From NCBI GenBank assembly GCA_028713125.1, contig JAQTOU010000003.1, forward strand, positions 186,001-250,000: 64,000 bases of DNA, in the 5' to 3' direction. This DNA comes from Elusimicrobiales bacterium (GTDB taxonomy: Bacteria > Elusimicrobiota > Elusimicrobia > Elusimicrobiales > UBA9959). The notes under the pieces were generated by a model, which was not told the origin of the DNA, searched no databases, and saw nothing but the letters and a program-made list of their open reading frames with translations. Position numbers and translations under genes: made by a program. The number at the start of each line of letters is the position of its first letter. The first letter of the stretch is position 1. Positions 9,988-16,945 of this stretch are shown here, in pieces.

Positions 9988-10545
9988 ATGAACCTGCTTC
10001 CTGAAGGAAAATCCCGGGGTCTTTCCGGGCTGGCGCTGGGGGCCGCGGCGCTTTGCGGCATAATGGCGGTTAAGGCCGCTTACGACCTTTTCACGCTGCT
10101 GGAAGTTTTTTCCACCCCGGCTTTTTACCTGGCCTTGGCAAAGGCTACGGTGCCTATGGAAATGCCGCCGCTGGCCGGCCTTATGATCCACAATATGCGC
10201 TCGGTTTTTGTCTTCTCGCTTTTTTTCTGGCTTTCCGGCTTCGTTCTGGCCCTAGGCGTCAGGGCCCGCAAGGACTGGGCGCGGAGCGGGGCCGTGGCCA
10301 TGCTGTACCTGCTGAGCGCGGCCGCCCTGCTGATGCTGCTTTACCCCTGGCTCGCTATACCGCGCCCGCTGTTTTACGGAGAGGTCTCGCTTGCGCCGGA
10401 ATTCAACGCTTCCGTAAAAGCGGCGGCTTACGTAGCCAGGATAATAGCGCTCCTGCTGGGCAGCCTTTGCCTGTGGTGGGCGCTGGCCCTGGACCGGGGC
10501 GACCTGAGAAAGGAATTTTTTAAAATACCGGGAGAAAGACGATGA
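9988..10545 (+). CDS. Four-helix membrane protein, first gene of ACHx operon
   Basis: A 185-residue protein with four hydrophobic segments (about 13-35, 70-92, 98-120, 143-168) and a short charged C-terminus. I do not recognise a family. Its stop overlaps the start of the DUF2207-like gene by ATGA, so the two are translationally coupled. There is no Shine-Dalgarno site; a perfect TATAAT ends 12 bases before the ATG, implying a very short or absent leader. Context suggests a membrane partner of the DUF2207-like protein. Confidence 0.75.
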   Translation: MNLLPEGKSRGLSGLALGAAALCGIMAVKAAYDLFTLLEVFSTPAFYLALAKATVPMEMPPLAGLMIHNMRSVFVFSLFFWLSGFVLALGVRARKDWARSGAVAMLYLLSAAALLMLLYPWLAIPRPLFYGEVSLAPEFNASVKAAAYVARIIALLLGSLCLWWALALDRGDLRKEFFKIPGERR

Positions 10546-12218
10546 AAAAGAATGTCCTGAAGGTCTTTGCGGCGCTGGCCCTGGTCCTCGCCTCGGGCGC
10601 GGCTTTCGCCGGCGGCTTTAAAATGAACTGGGTCGAGACCGAGGCCGTGCTGGACAAGGACGGCAAAGCGCAGATCTCCTATGTCGTAAGGTGGGCCGGC
10701 CAGGGCGGTCAGCTGCACGGTTTTTACTTCGAGGGCTTCCAGGAAAACCCGGTGTTCGACTATGAGCGCGCTTACGCGCTGGACGATACCGGCAAGCGCT
10801 ACGGGCTTGAGATAAAAAAGCTTAACGACAGGAAGTACGATATCGTCCTGGCCGGCGGCGAGGCCTTTGCCAGCGGCGAGATCACTTATTTCTTCCGCTA
10901 CGCAGCGGACCTGCAGGCCTCGGGCAACCTTACGCAGACCATGTCGGGCGACAAGCGCCTTGCGGTCTTCAACTGGTCGCCTGTGCAGTGGGACGATCCC
11001 CTTGAGCACGAGGCGCTGGTGGTTCGATTCCCCGCCGAGCTTTCCACCCCGGCCGTTGACGAGCAGGCCCTGGCGAAGCTGGGCTTCCTGACCGAGAAGT
11101 TCGTGAACGAGAGGTATTCGATAGACTACCCTACGGTCAAGAACGCCGCCGGGAAGGACATTTTCAGCGTCCGGTTCTTCCGCAAGGCCCTAGAGAGCCG
11201 GTATCATTTCCAGGTGCAGGTCTACCTGGACGCAGCGGCCTTTAACCTGAACACCATGGCCTACGGCAGCCTTACCAAAGCCGCGCCGACCCGCACTAAA
11301 TACCTGCCCGCGGAAGAGAAATATTATATGAACCGCTACTTCCCCGGCAGCATGATAGCCGGGCTGCCGGTAAGCAGGCGGGAGACCATGTTCCTTATTT
11401 TGGCCCTGGCCGCGGCTTTCGTCGTGATTCCTTTCTTTATCATGACCATAAAGCACAATGCGATGCTGACGGCGCAGGCCGGCATTTCCAATATCAACTG
11501 GGAGGCGGCGGACTGGACGCCGCCGAAAACCCAGGTCAGCAGTTTCCGCGTGCCCGGCAAGATAGCCAAGAACCTCAGCCCGCTGGAGGCGGGGGTGGTG
11601 ATGGGACTGCCGCTGGCCGAGATGCTCGGCCTCATGGTCGCGAATATGGAGCGCAAAGGCCTGCTTAAGGTCGTGAACTATTCCCCGCTGACCGTCGAGC
11701 GCCTCCCCGGGATAAGCTCGAGCAACGATCCCTATGAATCGGCCCTGCTTTCGGCGATGAAACCGGACGGGACCCTGGACCAGGCCGTCGCTGAATCAGC
11801 CCTGAAGACCCTGACCGCCGGGCTGGAGCAGAAGCTCTGGGACTGCGACCTGGAGGCTACAAAAAAATATTACAGGGACGAAGTAGAAAGCTACGGCCAC
11901 CGGGAGACGGACACCGACAGGGGCTATTACTGGGGCGGCTACCACCGGCATTATTACGGCAACCGGAACAGCCCGTACTACGACAATGCCGTCAAGGCCG
12001 GGGACGGGCTCACGGCTTCGCTGCCGAAAGACCTGAGCGCCGGGTTCGATTCTTTCCGCGGCTCGAAGTCCTGCTATGAAGGAGCCTTCGCGAATTCCGC
12101 CTGCCACGACGCCTGCCATTCGGCCTGCCACGACGCCTGCCATTCGGCTTGTCACTCGGCGTGTCATTCCGCCTGCCACGGGGCCTGCCATTCGGCCTGC
12201 GTGAGCAGCGGGCATTAA
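10542..12218 (+). CDS. DUF2207/YciQ-like membrane protein with C-terminal ACHx repeats
   Basis: A 558-residue protein. Signal peptide at 1-23 (ASGAAFA), extracytoplasmic beta-rich domain at about 24-278 like the N-terminal part of DUF2207 proteins, one membrane helix at 281-303, then a cytoplasmic region with LSPLEAGVVMGLPLAEMLGLMV, the helical module typical of that family. The tail is unusual: residues 520-551 are eight ACHx tetrapeptides (x = D, S or G), then ACVS and SGH. The topology puts the tail in the cytoplasm, where the radical SAM enzyme encoded 43 bases downstream could reach it. Metal binding is the main alternative. The start overlaps the upstream stop by ATGA. Confidence 0.8.
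   Translation: MKKNVLKVFAALALVLASGAAFAGGFKMNWVETEAVLDKDGKAQISYVVRWAGQGGQLHGFYFEGFQENPVFDYERAYALDDTGKRYGLEIKKLNDRKYDIVLAGGEAFASGEITYFFRYAADLQASGNLTQTMSGDKRLAVFNWSPVQWDDPLEHEALVVRFPAELSTPAVDEQALAKLGFLTEKFVNERYSIDYPTVKNAAGKDIFSVRFFRKALESRYHFQVQVYLDAAAFNLNTMAYGSLTKAAPTRTKYLPAEEKYYMNRYFPGSMIAGLPVSRRETMFLILALAAAFVVIPFFIMTIKHNAMLTAQAGISNINWEAADWTPPKTQVSSFRVPGKIAKNLSPLEAGVVMGLPLAEMLGLMVANMERKGLLKVVNYSPLTVERLPGISSSNDPYESALLSAMKPDGTLDQAVAESALKTLTAGLEQKLWDCDLEATKKYYRDEVESYGHRETDTDRGYYWGGYHRHYYGNRNSPYYDNAVKAGDGLTASLPKDLSAGFDSFRGSKSCYEGAFANSACHDACHSACHDACHSACHSACHSACHGACHSACVSSGH
12099..12206 (+). repeat. 12-base coding repeat array encoding ACHx units
   Basis: Nine in-frame 12-base units encode ACHD, ACHS, ACHD, ACHS, ACHS, ACHS, ACHG, ACHS and the diverged ACVS. 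Synonymous codons differ between units (GCC/GCT/GCG for Ala, TGC/TGT for Cys, CAC/CAT for His), so the peptide pattern is kept while the DNA has drifted. Confidence 0.9.
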
Positions 12219-12222
12219 TTAA

Positions 12223-12259
12223 GAAATCGGGAGTCGGGAATCGAAGATCAAGAGAAAAT
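12223..12259. repeat. GGGAATCG-type short iterations
   Basis: The gap before the radical SAM gene contains AATCGGGAGTCGGGAATCG followed by AAGATC, an imperfect iteration of a 7-8 base GGGAATC/GAATCGA unit. Related stretches occur at 33973-34067 and about 50552-50595, all intergenic. Confidence 0.5.
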
Positions 12260-12261
12260 AA

Positions 12262-13611
12262 ATGGATAAAAGAGAGTGGGTAAAGCGGGTGGACTGGATC
12301 GACGGTTATGCCGCGCGCATAAAGCCTTATGTGCGCGTGCGCCCCGCTGATTCTTTGCTGATAAAAATACCCAACCAGACCCATAAGCTAAACCCGCAGG
12401 GGCTTAAGCTGCTTAAATTCCTCTTCGACGGCGGCAAAGCCGTTTCGGTGGTGGAGAAATATCCCGAGGATCAGCGGGAGCAAATTTCTTTGGACATGTA
12501 TTATTTCTTCCGCGACCTGATGGCCCTGCTGAAGGGCTGCTACGATGAGCGGGAAGAGCGCCGCGCGGTGGAGACCAAAGAATTCGCACTGGGCCACAAT
12601 AGCCTGCCGGTGCTGAGCGAGATAGCCGTCACCTACCGCTGCAACCTGGCCTGCAAGTTCTGCTACGCCGGCTGCGGCTGCCGCAAGGACGAGGAGCACC
12701 CCGACCTCCCCGCCGGGGACCTTAAAAAGATATTGAGCATAATAAAAGAAGAGGCCGAGGTCCCGTCCGTCAGCTTTACCGGCGGGGAGCCGCTGCTCCG
12801 GCCGGAGATCCCGGAGCTGGTGGCCCACGCAAAGTCGCTCGGGATGTGGGCCAACCTTATAACGAACGGGACCCTCGCCACGGAAGAGACCGTGCAGAAA
12901 CTCAAGGCCGCCGGCCTGGATTCCTCGCAGGTCAGCGTCGAGGCCGGGAATGAGGCCGAGCACGACGCTATAGCCGCTTTCCCAGGCGCTTTTAAGCGAA
13001 CTGTGCGCGGTATAGAGAATCTGATGAAGGCAGGGCTGCGCGTGCACACCAACACGACTATTTCGGCCCTTAATAAAAATTCGCTCGAAGGCATTTTGGA
13101 CCTGGTAAAAAGCCTGGGCCTGAAAAAATTCTCGATGAACCTGCTGATGCCGGTGGGCTCCGCGGGGAAGAATTTCGACGAGACCTTCGTCTCCTATACC
13201 GAGGCGGGGCCGCTGGTAGAGAGGCTGAAAGAGCTGGCCGAAAAGCGCGGCCTTGAATTCATGTGGTATTCGCCCACGCCCGTCTGCATCTTCAACCCGA
13301 TAACCCGCGGGCTGGGCAATAAAGGCTGCGCCGCCTGCGACGGGCTCCTTAGCGTCGCTCCCAACGGCGACGTGCTGCCCTGCTCCAGCTACCCGAAGCC
13401 GCTTGGGAATATCCTTCATGAGCGCGGGAATTTTAAAAAGCTCTGGGCCCGCGAGGACTTCGCCTGGTTCAGGGGGAAAAGCTTCGCCCACGAAAAGTGC
13501 AAAGCCTGCCGGTACCTCGCGGTCTGCAACGGGGGCTGCCCGCTTTACTGGGAAAAGACGGGCTACGCCGAACTTCTGGCCGCCGAGGCCGCGATGGGGA
13601 GGATAGAATGA
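12262..13611 (+). CDS. Radical SAM/SPASM protein with PqqD-like N-terminal domain
   Basis: A 449-residue protein. Residues about 22-95 look like a PqqD-type winged helix (RiPP recognition element). The radical SAM core has the CX3CX2C cluster motif at Cys127, Cys131 and Cys134 and a GGEP motif at 174-177. The C-terminal SPASM region has Cys342, Cys356, Cys359, Cys374 and then CX2CX5CX3C at 413-426, enough for two auxiliary Fe-S clusters. Such enzymes (PqqE, AhbC/NirJ and RiPP maturases) modify peptides or tetrapyrroles. Lying just after the ACHx-tailed gene, it is the natural candidate to modify that tail; this is inference. Extra Cys138 and Cys140 follow the core motif. Confidence 0.9.
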   Translation: MDKREWVKRVDWIDGYAARIKPYVRVRPADSLLIKIPNQTHKLNPQGLKLLKFLFDGGKAVSVVEKYPEDQREQISLDMYYFFRDLMALLKGCYDEREERRAVETKEFALGHNSLPVLSEIAVTYRCNLACKFCYAGCGCRKDEEHPDLPAGDLKKILSIIKEEAEVPSVSFTGGEPLLRPEIPELVAHAKSLGMWANLITNGTLATEETVQKLKAAGLDSSQVSVEAGNEAEHDAIAAFPGAFKRTVRGIENLMKAGLRVHTNTTISALNKNSLEGILDLVKSLGLKKFSMNLLMPVGSAGKNFDETFVSYTEAGPLVERLKELAEKRGLEFMWYSPTPVCIFNPITRGLGNKGCAACDGLLSVAPNGDVLPCSSYPKPLGNILHERGNFKKLWAREDFAWFRGKSFAHEKCKACRYLAVCNGGCPLYWEKTGYAELLAAEAAMGRIE

Positions 13612-14645
13612 GCATATTGCCGCCGCCGCAAAAAGACGGGGAAATAAAATTCATGCTGGCCAAGGGCCTGCCGTACCGGTCGCGCATGACTTTGGTGGGG
13701 CTGCTTCTGACCCTGGGCCTGGGCCTGCAGCTTACAATCGGCTTCTGGCCCGGCCTGTGGGCCCTGGTCGCGGCGATGCTGATAGGGATAAATTCCGGCT
13801 ACGAGGCCGCTCCGAAGCTGACCGGCGAAGAGACCTGGGAGAAAGTCACCCCGGACGAGTACGCCAAAGTGCGGCTTAAGGCCGACCAGCTGAAAAAATG
13901 GGACGAGGACCTTTTCGACGGGAGCAGCATACGCGGGCTGGCGGGCTTCTTTGCCGCCGGAGTTGCCTGCCTCGCCGCTTATATCGCGGCCGCCGAAAGG
14001 TGGTCTTTCCCGGACGGCTCCTGGCTTTATTTCGGCCTGGACGCCGCTGTCCTGATCTTCCCGATGTGGTTCATAGGTACGCGCGACTATCTCAAAAAAG
14101 ACCGCCTGATCATAAAGATAAACATGCTCGAGAAGGTCATGGAGGCGCTGAAAGACCCAAGCGACGTGCAGGTGCAGCCGATGCTCGCCCTCGACGCCAC
14201 CGAGAAAGGCGGCAAAGTTCCGGAAGACGCAAGGCTGATGGTAAAACTCGTGGGCGCGCCCAAAGATTTCTACGGCCTGCAGGTGCAGCTCTCGGTGAAC
14301 AGCGTGCAGGGCAAGGACTACCCGTACCTCTACTGCGTGCTTATCGCCAAAGCCGGCTCCGGCCTGCTTGCGAAGTATGAAGAGTTCACCGTGCGGCCCG
14401 AAAGCTCCGGCGTCTCCGACTTCGTGAAAGCTTTGTTCGGGATGGACCGGACCGATATACTGTACGAGTCCAGCCGGTCCGGCGAAGTGGACATCATAGT
14501 GGTGCGCCAGCTCACCACGCGCACCAGCGGTTACTACACCTCTCCCGGCGCGGCCCTGGGCGTGGTGGACGCGGCGCTCAAGCTGGCCCGCGCGCTTGTG
14601 GCCGCTAACGCTAAGCCCGCTGTTGAAAAGAAGGGCGGGATTTAA
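13608..14645 (+). CDS. Membrane protein, last gene of ACHx operon
   Basis: A 345-residue protein of unrecognised family. Four hydrophobic segments lie at about 28-45, 48-63, 109-128 and 139-157; residues 160-345 form a soluble domain of mixed alpha/beta look. The start overlaps the radical SAM stop by ATGA (13608-13611) and has GGGAGG upstream, so it is translationally coupled to it. This start is preferred over upstream in-frame codons that lie inside the radical SAM gene. The coupling suggests a shared pathway, but no function can be read. Confidence 0.78.
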   Translation: MSILPPPQKDGEIKFMLAKGLPYRSRMTLVGLLLTLGLGLQLTIGFWPGLWALVAAMLIGINSGYEAAPKLTGEETWEKVTPDEYAKVRLKADQLKKWDEDLFDGSSIRGLAGFFAAGVACLAAYIAAAERWSFPDGSWLYFGLDAAVLIFPMWFIGTRDYLKKDRLIIKINMLEKVMEALKDPSDVQVQPMLALDATEKGGKVPEDARLMVKLVGAPKDFYGLQVQLSVNSVQGKDYPYLYCVLIAKAGSGLLAKYEEFTVRPESSGVSDFVKALFGMDRTDILYESSRSGEVDIIVVRQLTTRTSGYYTSPGAALGVVDAALKLARALVAANAKPAVEKKGGI

Positions 14646-14720: not shown

Positions 14721-15554
14721 ATGTGGAACTATACAGATAAAGTCTTCGAACATTTCAAGAACCCCAAGAACGTGGGGGAGATAGAGAACCCCGACGGCAT
14801 CGGAGAGATCGGCAGCATAGTCTGCGGCGACGCCCTCAAGCTCACCCTCCGCATAGACAAAGCCTCCGACAAGATCACCGACGCCAAGTTCAAGACCTTC
14901 GGCTGCGCCAGCGCCATCGCCTCCTCCTCCGCCCTCACCGAGATGGTGAAAGGCCTCACCCTGGACGAAGCCGCCAAGATCACCAACCAGCAGATAGCCG
15001 ACTACCTCGGCGGCCTCCCCGGCGAGAAGATGCACTGCTCCGTCATGGGCATGGAAGCCCTCGAAGCCGCAATAAAGAACTACCGCGGCGGCAAAGCCGA
15101 AAAAGTCATCATCGGCCAGGCCGAAAAGATAGTCTGCAAATGCTTCAGCGTCACCGATTCCGTCATCCTCAAAGCCATCAAGCTCAACAACCTCCACACC
15201 ATAGAAGAAGTCACCAACTTCACCAAAGCCGGCGGCGGCTGCCGCCAGTGCCACGGCGAAATAGAAAAACTCCTTAAAGACTACTGGGCCGAAGCCGAAC
15301 ATAAAAAATTCGACAAAATGACCGTAGTCGAGAAAATAAAAATAATAGAAAAAGTCCTCGCCGAAGAAATAAACCCCAAGCTCAAAGCCGACGGCGGCTG
15401 GATGGAGCTCGTCGACATCCAGGGCCAGAAAGTAAAACTCCGCTTCCTAGGCATGTGCCACGGCTGCCCCTCTTCGGGCGCCACCTTAAAGAACGTAGTG
15501 GAGAAAGAATTGCGCGAGAGAATCGACCCCGCGATAGAAATAGAGGCTGAATAA
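14721..15554 (+). CDS. nifU: Three-domain Fe-S scaffold protein NifU
   Basis: A 277-residue protein with the full NifU layout: IscU-like domain with Cys35, Cys62 and Cys106; a central [2Fe-2S] BFD-like domain with Cys139, Cys141, Cys174 and Cys177; and a C-terminal NifU domain with Cys246 and Cys249 (CHGCP). The positions nearly match the classical nitrogen-fixation NifU. It builds Fe-S clusters using sulfur from the NifS encoded downstream. No nitrogenase gene is present, so it is probably the general Fe-S assembly system, as in some anaerobes. GAGG precedes the ATG. Codon use is strongly C-ending (CTC, GCC), unlike the preceding operon. Confidence 0.95.
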   Translation: MWNYTDKVFEHFKNPKNVGEIENPDGIGEIGSIVCGDALKLTLRIDKASDKITDAKFKTFGCASAIASSSALTEMVKGLTLDEAAKITNQQIADYLGGLPGEKMHCSVMGMEALEAAIKNYRGGKAEKVIIGQAEKIVCKCFSVTDSVILKAIKLNNLHTIEEVTNFTKAGGGCRQCHGEIEKLLKDYWAEAEHKKFDKMTVVEKIKIIEKVLAEEINPKLKADGGWMELVDIQGQKVKLRFLGMCHGCPSSGATLKNVVEKELRERIDPAIEIEAE

Positions 15555-15566
15555 TCGCTTGCCGGA

Positions 15567-15702
15567 GGGGAGACCGCACGGGCCAGGTTAGCAAAAGCCC
15601 GTCGGAAGGCGAGGCTTGCGTAAGCGCCGAGCCTGAGACCGGCAGGCGCGCGCACGGTGTGCGCGACGCCGGTTTTGCGTTCTGGCCCGTGCGGTAGGCC
15701 CC
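15567..15702 (+). other. Structured intergenic element, copy A
   Basis: A region of about 136 bases between nifU and nifS bounded by GGGG/CCCC and a perfect 14-bp stem (15573-15586 with 15682-15695). Inside are GCAAAA/TTTTGC arms and a hairpin CGCGCAC-GGT-GTGCGCG. The reverse complement of 29212-29340 aligns to it with the same order of GGTTAGCAAAA, CCGTCG, GGCAGGCG, CACGGTGTG and GTTTTGCGT. It could be a mobile MITE-like element or a structured RNA; the conserved core and differing outer stem sequence suggest the fold matters. Confidence 0.65.
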
Positions 15703-15745
15703 GACTTCACATCTCGCGGTGCAGTTGCAGTTCTGAGGAAATCAT

Positions 15746-16945
15746 ATGGAAAAAGTCTATTATTTCGACAATAACGCCACCAGCCGCGTCGCCCCCGAAG
15801 TCGCCGCCGAGATGCAGCCCTTCTTCAACGACCTCTACGGCAACCCCTCCAGCATGCACTTCTTCGGCGGCGCCAACCAGAAATACCTCGACCTCGCCCG
15901 CCAGCGCGTCGCCGCCCTCCTCGGCGCCGCCCCCGAAGAAATAGTCTTCACCAGCTGCGGCACCGAATCCGACTCCACCGCCCTCTGGGCCGCCGTCCGC
16001 GCCTTCCCCGACAAAAAACACATCATAACCACCAAGGTCGAGCATCCCGCCGTCCTCAACGTCTGCAAATTCCTCGAAACCCAGGGCTACCGCGTAACCT
16101 ACCTCCCCGTAGACAGCACCGGCCAGCTCAACCTCGCCGACCTCCAGGCCGCCCTCACCCACGAAACAGCCATCGTCTCCATCATGTGGGCAAATAACGA
16201 GACCGGCGTGATCTTCCCCGTAGAAGAAGCAGCCCGCATTTCCCACGCCAAAGGCGCCCTGTTCCACACCGACGCCGTCCAGGCCGTAGGCAAGCTCCCG
16301 ATAAACCTCAAAGACACCAAGATCGATTTCCTCTCCCTTTCCGGCCATAAACTCCACGCCCCCAAAGGCATAGGCGTGCTCTACATAAAGAAAGGCTCCC
16401 GCTTCGCCCCTTTCATGATGGGCGGCCACCAGGAGCACGGCCGCCGCGCCGGAACCGAGAACGTCCCGTACATAGCCGGCCTCGGCAAAGCCGCCGAGCT
16501 CGCCGCCGCCAACCTCGAAAAAGAAAACACCTACGTAAAAGACCTTCGCGACCGCCTCGAAGCCGGCCTTTTAAAGATCCCCAATTCCCGCATCAACGGC
16601 GGCGGCGCTAACCGCCTCCCTAATACCACAAATATCAGTTTCGAATATATAGAAGGCGAGTCCATCCTCCTGATGATAAGCGAGAAAGGCATCTGCGCCT
16701 CCTCCGGCTCAGCCTGCACCTCCGGCTCCCTAGAGCCCTCCCACGTCCTCATGTCCATGGCCGTCCCCCAGACCTACGCCCACGGCTCGGTGCGCTTCTC
16801 CCTCAGCGTCTACAACACCGAGGAAGAAGTCGACTATATAATAAAGGAATTCCCGCCCATCATAGAGCGCCTGCGCTCCATCTCGCCCTTCGCCGACGGC
16901 AAGCCCCTGTTCGGCATGGAATCCTGCGAGCCGCATAAGCACTGA
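15746..16945 (+). CDS. nifS: Cysteine desulfurase NifS
   Basis: A 399-residue PLP-dependent class V aminotransferase-fold enzyme that takes sulfur from L-cysteine as a persulfide for Fe-S assembly on NifU. Visible: N-terminal YFDNNATS, PLP lysine Lys202 in SLSGHKLHAPKG, and catalytic Cys324 in ASSGSACTSGS, as in group I (NifS/IscS-type) enzymes. GAGG lies upstream of the ATG. The 191-base gap from nifU contains structured element A, which could set relative expression. It shares the C-rich codon use of nifU. A terminator follows. Confidence 0.95.
   Translation: MEKVYYFDNNATSRVAPEVAAEMQPFFNDLYGNPSSMHFFGGANQKYLDLARQRVAALLGAAPEEIVFTSCGTESDSTALWAAVRAFPDKKHIITTKVEHPAVLNVCKFLETQGYRVTYLPVDSTGQLNLADLQAALTHETAIVSIMWANNETGVIFPVEEAARISHAKGALFHTDAVQAVGKLPINLKDTKIDFLSLSGHKLHAPKGIGVLYIKKGSRFAPFMMGGHQEHGRRAGTENVPYIAGLGKAAELAAANLEKENTYVKDLRDRLEAGLLKIPNSRINGGGANRLPNTTNISFEYIEGESILLMISEKGICASSGSACTSGSLEPSHVLMSMAVPQTYAHGSVRFSLSVYNTEEEVDYIIKEFPPIIERLRSISPFADGKPLFGMESCEPHKH

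Follow-up and report, generated by a model that had tools for sequence, protein, structure and literature searches.

A conserved three-gene cassette pairing a radical SAM/SPASM enzyme with a membrane protein that carries a Cys-His repeat tail: a candidate maturation system

The 64,000-nucleotide stretch analyzed here (positions 186,001 to 250,000 of contig JAQTOU010000003.1, from an Elusimicrobiales bacterium; called "the window" below) carries a cassette of three genes, g2, g3 and g4, which encode a DUF2207-like membrane protein with a C-terminal (CHxA)n tail, a radical SAM/SPASM enzyme and a second membrane protein, respectively. The first-pass annotation of this DNA proposed a candidate undescribed maturation system at this locus, and the analysis supports that proposal; the case that the three-gene system is real, conserved and undescribed in the literature searched, and the case for the assignment of its substrate, are strong. 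The best overall explanation, and one that we consider reasonably probable from the sequences, is that the g3 product is a peptide-modifying enzyme that acts on the g2 tail. It is very likely that this tail is the substrate of g3, since each examined genome has one g3 and one tail, the two genes are adjacent in a conserved manner, g3 carries a PqqD-type domain of the RiPP recognition element kind (RRE; RiPPs are ribosomally synthesized and post-translationally modified peptides) and the ligands of a SPASM domain, and the tail is extremely conserved.

Co-occurrence across genomes, a check set in advance, was run on 150 genomes (its own included). Both g3 (at E ≤ 1e-60) and g4 are present in the identical 25 of these relatives and neither is present in the other 125 (Fisher's exact test for g3 against g4, 5e-29, not corrected for kinship); g2 is found in 26, the 25 carriers of g3 and g4 plus a fragment in genome G039. 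This fragment (L078, G039:C259) is a 50-residue g2 remnant in a genome that has neither g3 nor g4 and that has perhaps lost the cassette. The g2 profile applied to the whole phylum gave 29 of 340, with three extra, marginal matches in the tail region (E 2.5e-5 to 1.2e-4).

A scan of 84,980 species genomes for g2 gave 465 pattern matches, of which 398 are relatives, and the loci of the best 80 of these 398, with more than 20 phylum-level names among them, were analyzed. The g3 gene lies directly downstream of g2 on the same strand in 78 of the 80 loci, and g4 is present in 75. Those that lack a downstream g3 are L121, whose contig ends inside the tail, and L169, whose g3 is on another contig; those that lack g4 are L121, L142 and L174 (contig edges), L169 (as for g3) and L130 (none at E ≤ 1e-4). 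With start codons chosen by script, the gap between g2 and g3 is at most 57 bases in 52 of the 70 complete loci, and g3 and g4 overlap in 52. Twenty genomes drawn from 20 loci have one g3 each (577–685 bits), with everything else in them at or below 164 bits. Pairwise distances of g2 and g3, calculated for the 70 of 80 loci with complete genes, are correlated as co-inheritance predicts (r 0.92 for all 70, and 0.81 for the 49 that are not from Elusimicrobia). The nearest named relatives are Elusimicrobia, and other carriers are labeled Omnitrophota, Aminicenantes, Nitrospirota, Planctomycetota, Kiritimatiellae, Lentisphaerae, Verrucomicrobia, Spirochaetes, Armatimonadota, Acidobacteria, Hydrogenedentota, WOR-3, Bacteroidetes, Anaerolineae, Cloacimonetes and Desulfovibrionales, among others; these phylum names are the labels of mostly binned genomes, and some are perhaps misassigned. 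Two carriers, Acetivibrio straminisolvens and A. alkalicellulosi, are cultured.

Because the 80 loci were picked by the patterns VFNW[SA]PVQ and ACHSACHS, their tails are not independent evidence, and a search with g3 alone was therefore made. The g3 profile matched 11 of 291 in the class of the Acetivibrio genome, 14 of 294 in Planctomycetota, 5 of 297 in the phylum of the Desulfovibrionales genome and 11 of 247 in the phylum of the Spirochaetales genome. These 41 matches comprise 36 family members (4 seed genomes included) and five members of a sister family (L203 and L205–L208), which were set aside before the 36 were examined. On the g3 profile, full-length family members reach 484–685 bits, sister enzymes 284–307 and generic enzymes no more than 176. 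A tail lies next door in 35 of the 36; at the 36th, L201, the contig begins inside the enzyme and the tail is unreadable. Thus, the possibility raised in the first-pass annotation that the enzyme occurs mostly without such a tail is not borne out.

The g2 protein has an N-terminal signal or anchor, an extracytoplasmic domain and one strong transmembrane (TM) segment (residues 283–301), followed by a predicted cytosolic winged-helix-like region and then the Cys-His tail. The cytosolic placement of the tail rests mainly on this order of a signal or anchor and then a single TM segment; the positive-inside signal around the segment is weak (mean K+R 2.38 before and 3.02 after, in 53 of 56 rows). 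As to the first-pass label "DUF2207-like", 30 of 56 family members match the model (PF09972) at E ≤ 1, the best at 1e-8, and the g2 protein of the window itself falls below the cut-off (13.1 bits against 24.4, E 0.11). The tail did not arise by chance: the pattern TGYCAYNNNGCNTGYCAYNNNGCNTGYCAY has it as its only match in the 3.48-Mb genome (0 matches in the reversed control), and in 27 of 27 genomes it occurs at a single place (reversed control, nowhere). A set of 56 diverse g2 proteins shows a mean column identity of 39% but 40 invariant columns, 24 of which are within the tail (residues 521–555). Comparison of the tail codons with those of 12 relatives finds 6–18 synonymous and 0–2 non-synonymous changes, so the residues are under strong purifying selection; as the codons vary beneath constant residues, the repeat did not arise by recent expansion of the DNA.

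Tails could be read in 105 of 108 rows (L121 and L201 are cut by contig ends and L203 belongs to the sister family), and 101 of the 105 have seven to nine unbroken CHxA units, a count made with a regular expression in which C, H and A are required. The x position is S 615 times, D 118, G 48, N 11, A 7, Q 1 and H 1, and the tails mostly end in CVSGG(A/S/G)(H/R), CVSSGH or CHSGGSF. Six Spirochaete tails (L232–L237) show a super-repeat, with CHSA units in blocks of three that are each closed by ACV; this suggests a block-terminating role for the ACV with which ordinary tails end. The shortest tail, at L125/L075 (G038), has three CHxA units, and the g2-g3-g4 cassette is kept there.

The g3 protein matches the Pfam families Radical_SAM (1.1e-27) and SPASM (3.2e-9). 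Its own genome (39 contigs) has 70 Pfam radical SAM hits, 27 of which crowd into one 100-kb stretch (G000:C7:14781-114317). When this genome is searched with g3, 27 places pass E ≤ 0.001, but the best of them after g3 (1041 bits) scores only 96, so g3 has no close paralog there. All 54 diverse g3 sequences compared keep the motif cysteines C127, C131 and C134 and six SPASM cysteines, and at least 90% have the linker cysteine C342. SPASM domains have the pattern C-x9-15-G-x4-C, C-x2-C-x5-C-x3-C plus a further ligand, and this seventh Cys ligand is taken to be C342. Row sets A4, A5 and A6 used 54, 51 and 56 rows, respectively, of up to 81 available, and the L164 enzyme, which is frameshifted in the draft, was excluded from A4.

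The peptide-maturase features that the first reading saw in g3 are seen in both sequence and fold. Of 21 N-termini from the g3 family, 13 match PqqD (PF05402; best 7e-5), that of the window not among them, and the AlphaFold2 model of g3 (mean predicted local distance difference test score, pLDDT, 93.3) has an N-terminal unit of three strands and three helices. A Foldseek search of the Protein Data Bank with this model returns SkfB first (6.4e-17) and SuiB next. VIA aligns g3 through the RRE with both SkfB (Z 27.4, root-mean-square deviation [rmsd] 3.7, 338 residues aligned) and SuiB (Z 26.9, rmsd 3.8, 376 aligned), while anSME (Z 24.9) and PqqE (Z 22.9) are aligned without it. Neither the g2, g3 and g4 proteins of the window nor those of Acetivibrio reach any NCBIfam cut-off, and the same holds for an Armatimonadota g3 and for one sister pair; the PqqE model, for example, gives g3 123.5 bits against a cut-off of 381. 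A PADLOC match to viperins (4.2e-25) covers the core only and is generic to radical SAM proteins, and a defense role on that basis was rejected.

Beside each of five sister radical SAM proteins lies a DUF2207-like protein with a different Cys tail: four of these tails read CACACACAGCACACAGGGR and follow a Gly run, and the other reads CACAGCACACACAGGGR. An alignment of three of these partners matches g2 across 358 columns (hhalign E 6.9e-21); the partner gene comes before the enzyme gene in four loci and after it in the fifth, and PqqD is matched by all four sister enzymes tested, two of them above the gathering cut-off. This sister system (L211 3220-6281, L212, L213, L210 and L209) is likewise without an NCBIfam model. 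In a tree from which ten paralogs were removed, the enzymes of the (CA)n, or CACA, tails and those of the (CHxA)n, or ACHx, tails group together against the other six (support 100/99). As judged by sequence, enzyme kind and tail kind change together across the two systems.

The four open reading frames (Table 1) lie where the first-pass annotation had put them (9988–14645), and the 4-base ATGA overlaps of g1 with g2 and of g3 with g4, and the 43-base gap between g2 and g3, are confirmed. Its four-gene operon keeps the gene order given, but the conserved unit is reduced to three genes (g2, g3 and g4) because g1 is lineage-restricted.

Table 1. Positions in the window of the cassette genes and of their principal features
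Feature	Positions	Strand	Remarks
g1, 185-amino-acid membrane protein with 4 hydrophobic segments, accessory	9988..10545	+	only in Elusimicrobia loci
g2, 558-amino-acid DUF2207-like membrane protein	10542..12218	+	
(CHxA)8 tail of g2, CHDACHSACHDACHSACHSACHSACHGACHSACVSSGH, proposed substrate	12102..12215	+	
g3, 449-amino-acid radical SAM/SPASM enzyme, proposed tail maturase	12262..13611	+	
RRE/PqqD-like domain of g3, residues 24-90, three strands and three helices	12331..12531	+	AlphaFold2 model
Radical SAM core motif of g3, C127-x3-C131-x2-C134 (CNLACKFC)	12640..12663	+	invariant 54/54
SPASM region of g3, linker C342 plus C356, C374, C413, C416, C422, C426	13285..13539	+	Pfam SPASM
g4, 345-amino-acid membrane protein, predicted cytosolic alpha/beta domain (residues 165-337)	13608..14645	+	

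The g1 gene is present in 17 of 27 Elusimicrobia rows, its cluster holds only Elusimicrobia loci, and it has no match in Pfam or NCBIfam. The g4 model (pLDDT 91.8) consists of TM helices and an alpha/beta domain, which is placed on the cytosolic side because the number of TM helices is even. Foldseek finds no match to this domain (residues 165–337) at E ≤ 0.001, and VIA returns weak matches throughout: the rows for type III secretion chaperones and YbjN span Z 5–7.9, the best being SycT (Z 7.9, rmsd 3.4, 113 aligned), with Spa15 (Z 7.4, rmsd 3.4, 119 aligned) and YbjN (Z 6.5, rmsd 3.5, 115 aligned) below it. If right, a type III chaperone-like fold would suggest a domain that holds the unfolded tail. 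Clustering of the flanks of the cassette loci reveals no further gene that is widely shared. Directly downstream of the cassette in the window (14721–16945) are NifU-like and NifS-like genes, so named from their sequences; about ten Elusimicrobia loci retain such genes close to the cassette, elsewhere they are not clustered with it, and they were rejected as a general part of the system because they are confined to these loci. A family of about 130–180 amino acids lies upstream of g2 in eight loci, mostly of WOR-3/Stahlbacteria (L149, L151, L155, L157, L159, L160, L162 and L168).

A plausible course of events would begin with the tail at the cytosolic face of the inner membrane, to which the g2 TM segment would anchor it. 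The RRE of g3 would bind the cytosolic part of g2, and g3 would then work along the repeats, as a best guess joining each Cys sulfur to a carbon of a nearby residue in sactionine- or ranthipeptide-like thioethers, so that the tail would become a chain of small rings. Whether the products are thioethers or those of some other radical chemistry we judge to be an even matter. The g4 protein, with a possibly chaperone-like cytosolic domain beside its TM helices, might hold or present the tail or use the finished product. The modified tail probably stays attached to g2, where it would be a fixed structural, metal-binding or redox element. The first-pass annotation had suggested that the membrane partners might export the product; the predicted cytosolic position of the tail does not suggest this.

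Several observations weigh against this interpretation. It is unusual for the substrate to be a full-length membrane protein, with neither a short precursor nor a defined leader. All CHxA positions except x are fixed, so sequence variation cannot tell which residue is the acceptor. The RRE of the window's own g3 has no Pfam PqqD match, g3 lies apart from g2 in one genome (G352), and common ancestry alone would also give correlated g2 and g3 distances. Finally, a tree with all 16 paralogs keeps the CACA and ACHx enzymes apart, and the ACHx enzymes are not one clade in the best tree of the reduced set.

A first alternative, which we regard as unlikely though it deserves consideration, is that g3 acts on the tail through a different radical reaction, such as epimerization, dehydrogenation, His- or Ala-centered C-C crosslinking or Cys oxidation. 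RRE-bearing SPASM enzymes perform varied chemistry, and SuiB, which ranks with SkfB in fold, cross-links two amino acid side chains (PMC6231123); another report describes iterative C-C bond formation on a repeated TVGG peptide, with TvgB working along the motif (PMC9062424). The His and Ala of the tail are also fixed as firmly as the Cys. However, of the residues that both tail types contain, Cys alone is reactive, and this points to sulfur chemistry. It is improbable that the chief role of the tail is that of a metal, cluster or thiol-rich binding strip, with g3 helping to load or finish it or else acting on something different: a Cys/His composition suits metal binding and nifU- and nifS-like genes follow directly in some Elusimicrobia loci, but their absence from cassette clusters outside that group, the RRE and the SkfB/SuiB-like fold (which point to a peptide substrate), and the superfluity of a dedicated radical enzyme for a plain metal tail all speak against it.

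A repeated, core-like C-terminal peptide with a dedicated RRE enzyme could also be a RiPP core that is cut off g2 after modification and released as a signal or toxin. This seems doubtful to much the same degree as a metal strip, as the tail is nearly invariant across phyla, while most known signals or toxins are less constant; it is predicted to be cytosolic, and no protease or exporter family is prominent among the widely shared flank clusters, which were clustered and not annotated gene by gene. Last, g3 might be a heme or tetrapyrrole enzyme of the AhbC/AhbD/NirJ kind, with the tail a coincidental neighbor or a heme-attachment strip (CX3CH). AhbD and NirJ2 are indeed its best curated models (157.7 and 153.6 bits), but both scores are about 350 bits under their cut-offs of 500, and both matches begin past the RRE, at residue 122–123; NirJ (116 bits, cut-off 515) and AhbC (111.5, cut-off 650) score lower, and the pairing with the tail is too regular for coincidence. 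Membership in the AhbC/NirJ group, which the first-pass annotation had named as the competing assignment, is thus not found at the level of curated models, and a heme role, rejected on these cut-offs, is very improbable indeed.

Modification of the tail by g3 would have wider meaning. A segment of 30–40 residues is more constant than the rest of g2 over more than 20 phylum-level groups, and such constancy points to a shared physiological need, so far unnamed. Somewhat speculatively, and with rather less than even confidence, the cassette could represent a widespread and old modification of anaerobes in which the (CHxA)n tail is converted to a chain of thioether rings and retained, embedded in the protein and facing the cytosol, as a metal- or redox-active element, with the (CA)n lineage doing likewise as part of a family of systems. 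Radical SAM peptide chemistry would then reach beyond small precursors, to a tail carried by a full-length membrane protein, and DUF2207-like proteins, whose function is otherwise unassigned, would gain a testable activity. The tail is also a simple repeated substrate for the study of iterative enzymes, and cultured carriers (Acetivibrio) exist.

Searches of the open-license PubMed Central literature found no paper that joins DUF2207 or ACGX with radical SAM, none that joins Elusimicrobi- with radical SAM and SPASM, and, for the tail strings, nothing but one unrelated hit. Ordinary DUF2207 proteins have Gly-rich tails or no special tail and are not known to have a radical SAM partner. SMU.243 of Streptococcus mutans, a DUF2207 membrane protein, is comparable with the g2 family through the N-terminal domain model that part of the family matches, and is not shown to carry a g2-type tail; its loss alters biofilm and the tolerance of acid and oxidative stress (PMC10457818). 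Two NCBIfam models, ACGX (TIGR04340) and the Cys-Xaa-Xaa-Xaa repeat target (TIGR04117), by their names combine a radical SAM enzyme with a short-period Cys repeat, but the ACGX enzyme model gives g3 93.2 bits (cut-off 400) and the repeat-target model gives g2 11 bits (cut-off 50). The PapB model reaches only 80.9 bits against 340 for a family member.

The domain order of g3 (RRE, radical SAM, SPASM) is that of the RRE-radical SAM-SPASM/Twitch RiPP maturases SkfB, SuiB and CteB, and a linker Cys ligand before the SPASM domain, like C342, is described for SuiB (PMC6231123). These maturases act on short precursors, whereas the substrate of g3 would be the tail of a 558-amino-acid membrane protein. 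QhpD forms thioethers within a protein subunit, and in freyrasin six Cys are bridged (PMC8326336). No quinohemoprotein genes are reported near the cassette, a difference from QhpD; QhpD resembles the proposal for g2 in that radical crosslinks are made in a protein that is used as such, and freyrasin resembles the proposal for the g2 tail in that many Cys are each bridged once.

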